Shown piece by piece: positions 15,131-22,221 of a DNA stretch of 64,000 nt; position 1 is the stretch's first letter, and each line of letters opens with the position of its first letter. The position numbers and the translations under genes are program-made. This stretch comes from Novosphingobium sp. (GTDB taxonomy: Bacteria; Pseudomonadota; Alphaproteobacteria; Sphingomonadales; Sphingomonadaceae): contig NZ_JAHEBV010000009.1 of the NCBI RefSeq assembly GCF_024642085.1, positions 1 to 64,000 of the forward strand, written 5' to 3'. The notes beneath the pieces are model-generated. The model had not been told where the DNA came from and ran no database searches. It saw only the letters and a program-made list of their open reading frames with translations.

Positions 15131-16297
15131 TTAGCTGCCAAGGGTTTCATCCAGCAGTGCCTTAACGCGCGCCGCGTCGGGAAAACCCTCGGCGATCCAG
15201 CGCGATTCGACCGCTTGCAGAGTGCGGGCCACCTCTGGCCCCGCCTTGACGCCGCGCGCCACGATCTGGCCACCCTTGAGCGGGAAGGTGGGAACGTCCC
15301 AACCGTCAAGCGGGCTGATGCTTGATCCCGTCAACAGAAGACGGTCAATCGCTTGCTCCCTGCCCAGGCGATAAGCCAGCGAGCGGGGGTCCAAAGCCGA
15401 ACTGCCGCGCCCAGCCGCCAATGCGAGGCGCTTTTTCTGCGCTCCCGACAAACGAAAGCGGCTGGCGACACTCTCGGCCAGCGGTACGTCGCAGGGAAGC
15501 AAAGCAGCAAGCCGGCGCAAGGCATCTGGTGCCACGTCCTGGCGGCTTTCTTCGGCAGTCAGCCGGGCAAGGGCGATAACATCAGCCTCGGGCAGAACAA
15601 CGTCCAACACGCCCAATTCGGCCATACGTGCTGCGGTGGGGGCGGGGTCAGGCAGACTTAGCATGTTCATCATTTCCATGCCGATACGTTCGCGCGACAG
15701 GCCTTTCAGCGTTGCGGCAAGATCGGCACAGGCCTGCTCGGCAGCAGGATCGGCGGGCTGCGATCCAAACCGTGACTGGAAACGGAAATAGCGCAGGATA
15801 CGCAGATGATCTTCGCGGATACGCTGATGCGGATCACCAATAAAGCGCACCCGGCGTGCTTTCAGATCTTCACGCCCACCGAAATAGTCAAACAGTTCGC
15901 CGGTTTGCGGATCTGCATAAAGCGCGTTGATCGTAAAATCGCGCCGCGCTGCGTCGTCCTGCCATTCGCTGGCGAAAGCTACTGTGGCCCGGCGCCCGTC
16001 GGTGCTGACGTCGTGGCGCAGCGTCGTGATCTCGACCGGCCCGTCCGGCAGCACCGCAGTTATCGTACCGTGGTCGATCCCGGTAGGCACTGGTTGGAAC
16101 CCAGCAGCACGAACGCGGGACATGACGTCTTTGGGATCAAGCGGTGTGGCCAGGTCAATGTCCTTGACCGCGATGCCCAGCAAGGTGTCGCGCACTGCAC
16201 CCCCGACATAGCGGGCCTGACCGGGGCCCAGCGCGGCGATCAGCGCGGAAATACCGGCGCGGTTCTGCCATTCTGTCGGGGGTAGCCGGTCTACCAT
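15131..16297 (-). CDS. cca: CCA tRNA nucleotidyltransferase / polyA polymerase-like
   Basis: A 388-residue class II nucleotidyltransferase that adds or repairs the tRNA 3' CCA end. The head domain shows YVGGAVRDTLLGIAVKDIDLAT, the G-G and DxD metal-binding motifs, then RRDFTINALY and the RNA-binding neck IREDHLRILRYFRF. Length fits the alphaproteobacterial enzyme. ATG 16297 overlaps the stop of the upstream Nudix gene by 7 bases; the longer track ORF starts inside that gene in another frame. The DUF1285-Nudix-cca order is conserved in many alphaproteobacteria. Confidence 0.93.
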   Translation of the reverse strand: MVDRLPPTEWQNRAGISALIAALGPGQARYVGGAVRDTLLGIAVKDIDLATPLDPKDVMSRVRAAGFQPVPTGIDHGTITAVLPDGPVEITTLRHDVSTDGRRATVAFASEWQDDAARRDFTINALYADPQTGELFDYFGGREDLKARRVRFIGDPHQRIREDHLRILRYFRFQSRFGSQPADPAAEQACADLAATLKGLSRERIGMEMMNMLSLPDPAPTAARMAELGVLDVVLPEADVIALARLTAEESRQDVAPDALRRLAALLPCDVPLAESVASRFRLSGAQKKRLALAAGRGSSALDPRSLAYRLGREQAIDRLLLTGSSISPLDGWDVPTFPLKGGQIVARGVKAGPEVARTLQAVESRWIAEGFPDAARVKALLDETLGS

Positions 16298-16875
16298 GCG
16301 ATGCGCTTTGCCAGATTGGCGATAATTGCGGCAGTCACCCCCCAGATGCGGTGTTCGTTCCACATGATTTCAAGGTAATGCCGTTCAGCCCCCGCCCAAA
16401 ACGCTGATTGACGCTGGTGGTTGGCGCTATCGAAAACATATTCAACGGGCGCCTCGAACCATTTGGCCACTTCGGTCGGGTTGGGGCGCAGTTCCAGATC
16501 GGGCGGCACCACGGCAATCACCGGGGTTACGGCATAGCCGGTGCCGGTTCGGTAAACGTCGCTTGGCCCGATCACAGTGACCTGCGCCGGATCGATCCCC
16601 AATTCCTCGTTCGCCTCGCGCAGCGCAGCTTCAACCGCGTCTTCGCCCGGATCGATCTTGCCGCCGGGAAAAGCGACCTGGCCGGGGTGCGAGCGCATGT
16701 TGGACGGGCGGTGGATCAGCAGAAAGCCCGGCCGCTCACGCTCGGTGATAGCGGCCAGCACGGCAGCGGGGCGCAAGTCATCGGGCACGTCGCGGTGATC
16801 GCTGTGCAGGGTATCGATCTGTGCCGCGTGACCATTTGCATGAAGCCGGCGCAAGCGCTGAACAAGTGCGCTCAT
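16291..16875 (-). CDS. Nudix hydrolase, CoA pyrophosphatase-like
   Basis: A 194-residue Nudix enzyme. The Nudix box GGKIDPGEDAVEAALREANEELG is complete, and the preceding segment RPSNMRSHPGQVAFPGG is the UPF0035 signature of coenzyme A diphosphatases (NudL/PCD1-like). This suggests hydrolysis of CoA or related nucleotides to phosphopantetheine and 3',5'-ADP. The start overlaps the DUF1285 stop by ATGA and its stop overlaps cca, so translation is coupled through all three genes. Confidence 0.9.
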   Translation of the reverse strand: MSALVQRLRRLHANGHAAQIDTLHSDHRDVPDDLRPAAVLAAITERERPGFLLIHRPSNMRSHPGQVAFPGGKIDPGEDAVEAALREANEELGIDPAQVTVIGPSDVYRTGTGYAVTPVIAVVPPDLELRPNPTEVAKWFEAPVEYVFDSANHQRQSAFWAGAERHYLEIMWNEHRIWGVTAAIIANLAKRIAW

Positions 16876-17411
16876 TGCGGCACCAGCGAAAACACAGCGC
16901 CCTGGCTGCTGACCGTCAAATCGTCGCCGGACAGTTCCACCAGTTGAAGCCAGGTGCTGCGATTGATCCGCGCCTCGGTACCGCTGCGCACGGCAAGATA
17001 AAGCGCCGGCGTTTCGGCATCGCCGCGCGCCATCAGCGGGTGATCCGGCCCGGCAATCACCGTATCATCGCTGTTGAGACGAAAGGCCAGCGCGCCGTCG
17101 GTGGCGGTCACGTCCGTGGCGATAAACGCAGCGTCTTCCACCGTGATCGATTGCTTTTCACTTGGCGTCACCAGCCAGTGGCGGCCATCGGCGTCGCGGA
17201 GCAGCAGGTTTGCGAAGGCGCGGATCATGGCCGGGCGGCGCACTTCGCCGCCATCGTGGAACCAGCGCCCGTCCGCCTTTATCGTCATCAGACTGTCTGC
17301 CGTTGCCTGCGGCTCCCACTGGTCAACCGGCGGCAACTTGCGCGCGGCCACCAACTCGGCCAATTGGGCGAGCGACAGTCCGGAAATATCTGGGGGCGGG
17401 ACATAGGGCAT
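16872..17411 (-). CDS. DUF1285 domain-containing protein
   Basis: A 179-residue soluble protein. The central motif DGRWFHDGGEVRRPAMIRAFANLLLRD and the following WLVTPSEKQSITVEDAAFIA are characteristic of DUF1285. Its function is unknown to me; structures exist but no enzyme activity has been established. It heads the coupled DUF1285-Nudix-cca-retropepsin operon. The GNAT gene lies 23 bases upstream on the same strand and may share the transcript. Confidence 0.87.
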   Translation of the reverse strand: MPYVPPPDISGLSLAQLAELVAARKLPPVDQWEPQATADSLMTIKADGRWFHDGGEVRRPAMIRAFANLLLRDADGRHWLVTPSEKQSITVEDAAFIATDVTATDGALAFRLNSDDTVIAGPDHPLMARGDAETPALYLAVRSGTEARINRSTWLQLVELSGDDLTVSSQGAVFSLVPQ

Positions 17412-17434
17412 CGGTCACGCGATGCCAGATCGGA

Positions 17435-17953
17435 CTAGCGCAGCCAAGGCCCCAACGTGCCTTCGCGGGGCAGAACAGCGGGATTGTCGGTGCGGGCCAG
17501 CAGGCGGCTGGCCTCAAACGGGCCGGGCAAGTGCCAACCAAGAGTGTGGGCGTTGCTAAAGCCCCAGAAGCGGCCATAGTATTCGGGGTCGCCAATCATC
17601 ACCTGTGGCAATGGCGCCTGCGGGGATAGCGCGGCCAGAGCGGCCGTCATCAACGCTTTGCCGATTCCGGTGCCCTGCGCCTCTGGCTCAACCGCAACGG
17701 GCCCGACCATGATTAACGGATGGGCGCGGCCCTCAGGATCAGTCAGTGCGACCGGCCAACACTGCACCGTGCCAACCAGATGCTCTTCGCCGTTGATCGC
17801 AGCGAAGCTAAGGCCGGGGAGCCAATCGGTGCCTTCGCGTACCTTATAAGCCGTGCGGCTTTTGCGTTCTGGCTCAAACGCGCGATCAAGCAGTGCTTCG
17901 ACCATGGCGGGATCGACATTGTCGAGCGGGATCAGGGTCAGGGCCTCGGTCAT
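17435..17953 (-). CDS. GNAT family N-acetyltransferase
   Basis: A 172-residue acetyltransferase of the GNAT superfamily. The acetyl-CoA binding motif A is VGPVAVEPEAQGTGIGKALM (Q/R-x-x-G-x-G/A), preceded by a beta strand with LVGTVQCWPV. It resembles the YhbS-type group, for which substrates are not established. It is the first gene upstream of DUF1285 and lies 35 bases downstream of the sugar dehydrogenase gene on the same strand. Confidence 0.87.
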   Translation of the reverse strand: MTEALTLIPLDNVDPAMVEALLDRAFEPERKSRTAYKVREGTDWLPGLSFAAINGEEHLVGTVQCWPVALTDPEGRAHPLIMVGPVAVEPEAQGTGIGKALMTAALAALSPQAPLPQVMIGDPEYYGRFWGFSNAHTLGWHLPGPFEASRLLARTDNPAVLPREGTLGPWLR

Positions 17954-17988
17954 CGAGGCGCGCCGATAGGGGCTGAAGCAAGGCTTGT

Positions 17989-19146
17989 CTACTTGCGAGA
18001 GAGCCTCAGCAGCCGCCCGCCGTCGCCGTCTTCCAAGATATAGATTGAGCCATCCGCCCCCTCGACGATTTCACGGATGCGCTTTCCCAGCGGATAGCGC
18101 GCCTGTTCAGTGGCCTTGTTGCCGTCGATGCTGGCCCGAACCAGCCCTTCGCTGCCCAATGCGGCGATCAGCGCCTGACCTTTCCATTCGGGCCACATCT
18201 TGCCGGAATAGAAAATGAAATCGCCTGGCGCGATCACCGGGTTCCAGCTGATTGCGGGTGCGGCCAGATCGGGCCTTGTCGCGTGTCGCGGGATTGGCTT
18301 GCCATCATAATGATCGCCGTCCGACACCAGCGGCCAGCCATAGTTCTGGCCCTGTTTGACCTGGTTGAGCTCGTCGCCCCCGGCAGGCCCGTGTTCCAGG
18401 TCCCATAACTGTCCCGCCGCATCGAACTTTAGACCCAGAATGTTGCGGTGGCCGTAGGTCCAGATTTGTGCGCTGATCCCGCCTTTCGCAGCCAGCGGAT
18501 TGCCAGCAGCGGGTGAACCGTCGGGATTGAGCCGCAGAACCTTGCCCAAGTTGACCGACAGGTCTTGTGCAGGAGTGAACTTCTGCCGCTCACCCGAAGC
18601 GAGGAACAAATACTTGCCGTCGGGCGAAAAAGCGATGCGGTGCGAATAATGCCCGCGCCCGGTCACTTTGGGCTGCTGACGCCAGATAACGCTGAACCCT
18701 TCAATCCGGCATGAGTCGGCTTCTTCGCAGACCAGCGTCCCTTTGCCCAGCGCCGCACCGCGGGTGTCGCCGCTGCCTGCCTCGGCCCAGGTCAGATAGA
18801 TTGTTCGCCGCGACAGGGTGGATGCTGCTTCGGCGGGGAGAAAGGCAATTTCGCCCAAACCACCCTGGCCGCCGTAATCGACTTTGGGCACGCCGGTGAC
18901 CGTGCCTAACCGTCCGCTGCGAACGTCGCGAAACTTTATCGTCCCGCCCTTTTCGGTGACGAACAATACCTGGGTCCCCGGCGCGAACGCTGCGGCCCAA
19001 GGTTCGTCGAACGAGCCCAGAACTTCACTGCTGAAGCCTTCAGTCTGACCTTGGCTGGCAGATCGACTATCCCCGGCGGCAGTGGTGCCGCAGCTTGCGA
19101 GGATTAAGGGAAGGGGCGATAGGGCGATCAGGATTTTTGCAAACAT
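17989..19146 (-). CDS. PQQ-dependent sugar dehydrogenase family lipoprotein
   Basis: A 385-residue six-bladed beta-propeller protein of the soluble glucose/aldose dehydrogenase family (YliI-like). A lipoprotein signal with lipobox LILASC puts it on the periplasmic side of a membrane. Family motifs include GGQGGLGEIAFLP, HRIAFSPDGKYLFLASG, TYGHRNILGLKFD and LEHGPAGGDELN, where the catalytic His and cofactor contacts lie. PQQ synthesis genes are not in the window, so cofactor supply is unknown. The ATG at 19146-19144 overlaps the ATG of divergent rnhB (CATG). Confidence 0.9.
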   Translation of the reverse strand: MFAKILIALSPLPLILASCGTTAAGDSRSASQGQTEGFSSEVLGSFDEPWAAAFAPGTQVLFVTEKGGTIKFRDVRSGRLGTVTGVPKVDYGGQGGLGEIAFLPAEAASTLSRRTIYLTWAEAGSGDTRGAALGKGTLVCEEADSCRIEGFSVIWRQQPKVTGRGHYSHRIAFSPDGKYLFLASGERQKFTPAQDLSVNLGKVLRLNPDGSPAAGNPLAAKGGISAQIWTYGHRNILGLKFDAAGQLWDLEHGPAGGDELNQVKQGQNYGWPLVSDGDHYDGKPIPRHATRPDLAAPAISWNPVIAPGDFIFYSGKMWPEWKGQALIAALGSEGLVRASIDGNKATEQARYPLGKRIREIVEGADGSIYILEDGDGGRLLRLSRK

Positions 19147-19774
19147 GTCCGCAACAATTACCCAGCCAGCCACTTTTGCCAAGTCCGACCACATCGTCAT
19201 CGGCGTGGACGAGGCGGGGCGCGGGCCGCTGGCCGGACCGGTGGTGGCAGCAGCTTGCGTGCTGGGACCCAATGCCCCTGCCGGGCTCGACGATTCTAAA
19301 AAGCTGTCTGCCCGTCGCCGCGCAGTGCTTGAACCGCAAATCCACGACAGCAGCCAGTGGGCGCTGGGTCTGGCCGCGGTTGACGAGATCGACGCGCTTA
19401 ATATCTTTGGCGCAACCATGCTGGCGATGACCCGAGCCGTCACAGCACTGTGCGATCTGCTTGGTGCGGAACCCGATCAGGTGCTGATCGACGGGAACAA
19501 GACCCCGCTCGGCCGGGTGCCCGAATGGCGCTGGAAAGCTCGCGCCATCGTTGGCGGCGATGGAATCGAACCATGCATCTCGGCCGCATCGATCCTGGCC
19601 AAGGAGCACCGCGACCGGCTGATGCGTGCCGCAGCGCTGGACCACCCGTTTTTCGGCTGGGAACGCAACATGGGCTATGGCACCGCGGAACACTTGGCGG
19701 CGCTGCGCAAGCACGGCTTGACGCCGCTCCACCGCCGCAGCTTTGCTCCGGTGGTCCAGCTGGTTTTGATCTGA
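19145..19774 (+). CDS. rnhB: Ribonuclease HII
   Basis: A 209-residue type 2 RNase H that removes ribonucleotides from DNA and RNA-DNA hybrids. The catalytic signature is VDEAGRGPLAGPV (Asp23, Glu24), with DDSKKLS, VLIDGNK and AASILAKEHRD following. The chosen ATG 19145 gives a short non-conserved N-terminus before the catalytic strand; the longer track ORF would read into the divergent lipoprotein's signal sequence. Its start codon shares two bases with the opposite-strand ATG, so its promoter must lie inside the sugar dehydrogenase gene. The ccrM control region follows its stop. Confidence 0.94.
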   Translation: MSATITQPATFAKSDHIVIGVDEAGRGPLAGPVVAAACVLGPNAPAGLDDSKKLSARRRAVLEPQIHDSSQWALGLAAVDEIDALNIFGATMLAMTRAVTALCDLLGAEPDQVLIDGNKTPLGRVPEWRWKARAIVGGDGIEPCISAASILAKEHRDRLMRAAALDHPFFGWERNMGYGTAEHLAALRKHGLTPLHRRSFAPVVQLVLI

Positions 19775-19797
19775 CACCCGCAAATAATTCGGCGGGC

Positions 19798-19931
19798 GAG
19801 TCTTCCCCGTCACACCCCTACATCTTGAGTCCCTGGCGAATCCCGGGACTCTAGATGGTGTGCCGGACTCGTTCCGTTCTCATGCCGGTAACCTTTCGCT
19901 AACCATCGCGGGCTAGGATTCCCGCGGAGTC
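19798..19931 (+). promoter_or_regulatory. GANTC-dense control region upstream of ccrM
   Basis: Seven GANTC sites (19798, 19827, 19838, 19847, 19866, 19917, 19927) occur within 134 bases; random sequence predicts about half a site. GANTC is the target of the CcrM enzyme encoded just downstream. Two of the sites form an inverted repeat (gagtccc...gggactc). This is most simply a methylation-sensitive autoregulatory promoter region, as known for Caulobacter ccrM. Confidence 0.7.
19888..19903 (+). promoter_or_regulatory. CtrA-like box
   Basis: GTAA-N7-CTAAC matches the CtrA consensus TTAA-N7-TTAAC with one mismatch in each half and exact spacing. It lies within the GANTC cluster, 95 bases upstream of the ccrM ATG. 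CtrA activates ccrM in Caulobacter, so the match is in the expected place. Confidence 0.5.
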
Positions 19932-19940
19932 GCTGCTTGA

Positions 19941-22221
<2,281 letters not shown>

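Follow-up and report, generated by a model that had tools for sequence, protein, structure and literature searches.

Why should seven copies of a methyltransferase's target site be packed directly upstream of the gene that encodes the methyltransferase? Most of what is understood about the confinement of CcrM to one part of the cell cycle comes from Caulobacter, in which ccrM is driven by CtrA, and the ccrM promoter of Caulobacter crescentus has only two GANTC sites. The window analyzed here, by which we mean the whole 64,000-nucleotide stretch of Novosphingobium sp. DNA, had received a first-pass annotation from its sequence. This annotation pointed to seven GANTC sites within 134 bases upstream of a ccrM gene, with a CtrA box among them, and proposed that ccrM is strongly autoregulated through the methylation state of these sites.

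The sites lie in a 223-bp intergenic interval that follows the end of rnhB (RNase HII, PF01351) at 19774 (Table 1). The gene downstream had been called a GANTC methyltransferase, and its product is indeed CcrM-like by its N6_N4_Mtase and RAMA domains and by its top-scoring NCBIfam model, which is CcrM at 597 bits, a score below that model's cut-off of 830. A protein search gave 80 relatives of ccrM with 77-90% identity, mainly from Novosphingobium with some from Croceicoccus and Qipengyuania. In a separate observation, the contig of locus L073 (CAJCHR010000311.1), titled 'Actinobacteria bacterium 21-64-8', was found to encode a 77% identical CcrM behind a sphingomonad-like ccrM promoter sequence; this contig is probably a mis-binned or mislabeled sphingomonad.

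Table 1 Features of the region between rnhB and ccrM, with positions numbered from the first letter of the window. Kept and column counts refer to relatives in the alignment.
Feature	Position	Strand	Remarks
rnhB-ccrM intergenic control region	19775-19997		bounded by rnhB end and ccrM start
GANTC site a (GAGTC)	19798-19802		identical alignment column in 60/80 relatives; N = G in 59/61
Operator-like dyad CnCnnnATnTnGANTC-N15-GANTCnAnATnnnGnG	19816-19862		0 mismatches in window
GANTC site b (GAGTC), left dyad arm	19827-19831		kept in 73/80; N = G in 74/74
GANTC site b' (GAATC), dyad center	19838-19842		exact column 17/80; within 3 columns 36/80
GANTC site c (GACTC), right dyad arm	19847-19851		kept in 65/80; N = C in 65/66
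GANTC site d (GACTC), followed by conserved GTTC	19866-19870		kept in 64/80
Weak CtrA-like box GTAA-N7-CTAAC	19888-19903	+	2 mismatches to TTAA-N7-TTAAC
GANTC site f (GATTC), loop of CGCGGG..CCCGCG	19917-19921		exact column 37/80; within 3 columns 53/80
GANTC site g (GAGTC), just 5' of -35 element	19927-19931		kept in 59/80
-35 element TTGACG	19937-19942	+	most conserved 9-mer of region
Perfect DnaA box TTATCCACA	19949-19957	-	within promoter spacer; sole perfect box in window
-10-like element CACCCT	19960-19965	+	17 bp from -35
ccrM, CcrM-type adenine methyltransferase, 377 aa	19998-21131	+	N6_N4_Mtase and RAMA domains

All seven sites were confirmed, and their clustering proved to be more extreme than had been annotated. 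About 0.5 sites had been given as the expectation for 134 bp; this holds when base composition is used (0.47), but the real background of the window yields only 0.17, for which the Poisson P of finding seven is ~6e-10. Elsewhere in the window, a stretch of 134 bp never contains more than two GANTC sites. As the genome background for clusters we used 318 kb of further stretches sampled from the same genome, in which GANTC occurs at 1.18/kb and the maximum was four sites per 134 bp, seen once. This cluster, the second densest in the sampled stretches, lies at L264:15510-15643 (genome contig C16), with more sites further on, and stands upstream of an nrdA-like ORF (15981-18077; ribonucleotide reductase alpha-subunit-like). 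Over the whole window, GANTC is depleted about threefold, with 79 sites versus 239 expected from dinucleotide-preserving shuffles. Around site f there is also a perfect 6-bp inverted repeat, CGCGGG-N8-CCCGCG (19907-19926), whose arms are poorly conserved among relatives.

Conservation of the cluster in relatives was a check set beforehand, and the array was found to be kept throughout the genus and the family. In 80 of 80 related loci, 4-14 GANTC sites per 300 bp occur upstream of ccrM, about 30-fold over the remainder of these loci. The last 230 bp before ccrM in the relatives contain 35 GANTC/kb compared with 1.19/kb in 522,559 bp of flanks, and in the same 230 bp none of the other NNnNN palindromes exceeds 7.2/kb. 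For sites a, b, c, d, and g, the alignment column of the window is shared by 59-73 of the 80 relatives, with b' and f being less fixed. Identity to the window is 80% at the GA.TC letters and 47% at the remaining intergenic bases (random placement, P = 0.0005). Among 48 further genera of the family, one has only 2 sites per 230 bp upstream and the others have 3-11, as counted in at least one genome of each genus. Since the array is kept in some genera where the gene upstream of ccrM differs from rnhB, it belongs to ccrM. Taken together, the feature is real, conserved, and unusually dense, and the alignments demonstrate, at the level of sequence, that the GANTC array before ccrM is under selection.

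The annotated inverted repeat between two of the sites was likewise borne out, and it is part of something larger. Sites b and c form the inner arms of the dyad CnCnnnATnTnGANTC-N15-GANTCnAnATnnnGnG. When family genomes were searched for this dyad with up to two mismatches, it was present in 23 of 61, in exactly one place each (the pattern is palindromic, hence every place is listed on both strands), and the reversed pattern gave 0 matches. In all 12 of the loci that were fetched, the dyad adjoins ccrM. A strict pattern for sites c and d, which matched in 8 of 101 genomes and lay beside ccrM wherever the position of ccrM was listed, was superseded by the dyad pattern. The half-site positions are conserved in 107 of 147 loci, namely those with a GAGTC-N13..18-GACTC core, and the conserved letters extend beyond GANTC (CnCnnnATnT). 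Pairing between the arms was hardly above the prediction from column composition, the conserved letters being fixed and not covarying. Conservation of the half-sites without covariation favors an operator bound by protein over a stem formed in RNA. Although the stretch folds well (z = -2.7), we rejected a hairpin or attenuator in the RNA because the arms lack covariation and the stretch lies upstream of the predicted start. At the level of sequence, GANTC is present in both arms of a candidate operator, and the dyad is unique to ccrM in every locus checked.

A second check set beforehand was whether the promoter lies far from the cluster. To the extent that sequence can show this, it does not, since a conserved sigma70-like promoter is predicted directly 3' of the array, at 19937-19965. 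All 81 loci have TTGAC no more than 140 bp before the ccrM start codon. The TTGACN-N17-nAnnnT geometry is shown by 60 of them, and 48 of those 60 carry two GANTC sites in the spacer. This twin-GANTC promoter pattern was detected in 33 of 41 genomes of the genus, with 1 match of the reversed control in all, and in 25 of the 30 loci that were fetched the match stood at ccrM. In the rest of the class, 38 of 87 ccrM loci, from 30 of 67 other alphaproteobacterial families, likewise have this promoter upstream of the gene (controls 0 when reversed and 0.1 when shuffled). In the class-wide loci from outside the order (L183-L209 and L269-L328), the second spacer site usually has A as its next base (GANTCA). 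The promoter GANTC sites differ in their central N, which at the -10 site is C, A, or T, and their position shifts relative to -35. A varying N is what would be expected if methylation itself were selected.

In the window and its nearest relatives (e.g., L001, L003, L005, and L019), the spacer carries TGTGGATAA, a perfect DnaA box; the lineage of the window has lost both ancestral spacer GANTC sites and has the DnaA box in their place. The annotation had named neither this box nor the core promoter, the larger dyad, or the spacer sites of relatives. Of the 81 loci, 29 have a perfect DnaA box, as do 22 of the 48 other genera, compared with 2 boxes in the 522,559 bp of flanks. Other members of the family have the box just after the -10 element or ~150 bp upstream. 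The window shows the mark of a DnaA-regulated promoter, a box at the promoter itself, and this box is enriched and recurrent in relatives. We read the changing location as turnover of box position under selection for DnaA input. In a comparative alphaproteobacterial study, ccrM was predicted to be controlled by DnaA chiefly when CtrA sites are absent (PMC2877005), and the conserved box agrees with that earlier prediction.

The CtrA part of the proposal fared less well. The GTAA-N7-CTAAC box exists as annotated, with two mismatches to consensus. Matches with up to two mismatches occur in ~18% of shuffled upstream regions, so the box of the window proves little alone. Boxes with no more than one mismatch were found in 40 of 147 upstream regions, usually 92-117 bp from the start codon, compared with 2.4% of shuffles. 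These counts make CtrA control plausible for part of the group, and for the genome of the window it is weakly supported. In Sphingomonas melonis, CtrA is non-essential (PMC8116508).

Autoregulation via methylation is the best reading of the conserved array, and we consider it probable, although far from assured, that the region is a methylation-state-sensing, replication-coupled autoregulatory control region of ccrM. CcrM would methylate the GANTC array, and replication would make the array hemimethylated and reset the mark. A DNA-binding protein at the dyad, with an affinity that depends on methylation state, would then alter the activity of the ccrM promoter; this reader could be GcrA or an undescribed dimeric factor. 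DnaA at its box would couple ccrM control to replication initiation. Since a DnaA box has replaced the spacer GANTC pair, methylation would act here only through the upstream array. As for the sign, we lean somewhat toward negative feedback, in which full methylation would shut ccrM off and passage of the fork would reopen it. This preference comes from Caulobacter, where GANTC sites outside -10/-35 go with minimal levels at 40-60 min (PMC4287350), and the sites of the window are all upstream of -35. A narrower version, that sphingomonads have a dedicated, undescribed GANTC-methylation reader of a single ccrM operator with DnaA as a second, replication-linked input, is a tentative suggestion that we would sooner doubt than adopt. 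If it held, ccrM would gauge the mark that its product leaves on the gene, in a natural analog of the engineered CcrM memory circuits.

The strongest competitor, which we nonetheless judge to be rather unlikely, is a GcrA-sigma70 methylated promoter, at which GcrA would bind methylated GANTC and recruit RNA polymerase, so that CcrM activates its own gene in positive feedback. Recruitment of RNA polymerase to methylated promoters by GcrA has been described (PMC3667746, PMC7403470), and GcrA is encoded in the genome of the window (PF07750, 124 bits, E=9e-36, contig C62). Furthermore, in relatives and in many other families a pair of GANTC sites lies between -35 and -10, a position tied in Caulobacter to activation at 40-60 min (PMC4287350). 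However, the spacer of the window's own promoter holds 0 of the GANTC sites that mark a GcrA-dependent methylated sigma70 promoter, and the array sites mostly misfit YGAKTCK, the extended GcrA motif of Caulobacterales (PMC7987155). Nor does the presence of twin sites track that of GcrA: twin-GANTC ccrM promoters occur in 26 of 64 genomes with GcrA versus 7 of 16 without detected GcrA, which is no association (Fisher P = 1) in a test made weak by the 16 genomes without GcrA and by draft assemblies. GcrA as the sole reader was set aside on this lack of co-occurrence, weak as the test is, and because twin sites are equally frequent with and without detected GcrA, GcrA is not established as the reader. 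In the control set, PF07750, the GcrA family, also scored above cut-off in an archaeon, Sulfolobus acidocaldarius.

Methylation might also be incidental if the array were an ordinary transcription factor operator in which GAGTC falls within the half-site by coincidence. Such an operator would account for the conserved non-GANTC letters of the dyad and for the constancy of the central N at sites a, b, and c; the fixed N in b and c counts against the methylation-sensing reading, as it also fits an operator that overlaps GANTC by chance. We find this improbable, since N is variable in the GANTC sites of the promoter, which also move relative to -35, further sites are gained and lost as GANTC with 4-14 per locus, all other palindromic words of the NNnNN form are far rarer there, and the dyad is found only at the gene for the GANTC methylase.

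The spacing of the sites was analyzed as well. Distances between neighboring GANTC sites cluster at 9-11, 18-20, and 29-31 bp, and neighboring sites may share one helix face. The best period for the array of the window was 9.95 bp (P = 0.009 across all periods 6-16), as it was for the array of locus L011 (P below 0.0005). The resultant R was 0.92 at 10.0 bp and 0.16 at 10.5 bp. At 10.5 bp the phase breaks down, so the sites of the array are not all on one helix face, and strict 10.5-bp helical phasing was rejected in favor of an array period of ~10.0 bp. Sequestration, in which a protein would, like SeqA on GATC, polymerize on closely spaced hemimethylated GANTC and temporarily shield the promoter after replication, would suit the site density, the neighbors spaced near 10 bp on nearly the same helix face, and the nearby DnaA box, but it is very improbable given that phasing is not kept over the whole array and that no SeqA-like GANTC reader is known from alphaproteobacteria.

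Returning to methylation-sensing autoregulation, we compared the region with earlier counts. GANTC upstream of alphaproteobacterial cell-cycle genes averages 0.4-1.5 per promoter, with more at some genes, and no conclusion on control was drawn from these counts (PMC2877005). For Sphingomonadales, GANTC counts were reported upstream of ctrA, not ccrM (PMC8116508). Of 96 cell-cycle TSSs with GANTC in Caulobacter, just 11 have two or more sites in the 50 bp upstream (PMC4287350). In the main texts of the open literature searched, we came across neither the array nor the dyad nor the class-wide twin-site ccrM promoter. Our analysis suggests that sphingomonad ccrM carries its own methylation sensor together with a DnaA input, in a group where CtrA can be dispensable. 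Moreover, across the class ccrM is repeatedly preceded by a promoter in which two GANTC sites occupy the interval from TTGAC to GANTCA, which makes methylation feedback on ccrM a broad, readily testable hypothesis and more than a peculiarity of Caulobacter.

Among known systems, Dam and GATC provide epigenetic operators (pap, agn43/OxyR) and the SeqA-bound GATC clusters at oriC. The region before ccrM is like these in that methylation sites are embedded in a putative operator or closely spaced, and unlike them in that it involves GANTC and CcrM and that the controlled gene is the methyltransferase itself. A synthetic CcrM memory circuit with a zinc-finger repressor also has a methylation-sensitive DNA-binding protein in control of ccrM (PMC5458116); that circuit is engineered, whereas the layout here would be natural. 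The GcrA-CcrM methylated sigma70 promoters (ctrA P1, mipZ, and podJ) have GANTC between or beside -35 and -10, and the twin-GANTC ccrM promoter of the relatives resembles them. The promoter of the window differs from these by having no spacer sites, and twin sites are also present in genomes without detected GcrA. With the ccrM promoter of C. crescentus, the region shares GANTC near its own promoter, a putative CtrA input, and probable methylation feedback (PMC3973325, PMC8865702); in Caulobacter, methylation state directly affects several promoters, most probably that of ccrM itself (PMC3973325). It differs from the C. crescentus promoter in its seven sites (4-14 in relatives), its dyad, and its perfect DnaA box. 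We place the region, as a predicted variant, among the methylation-controlled promoters of CcrM targets.
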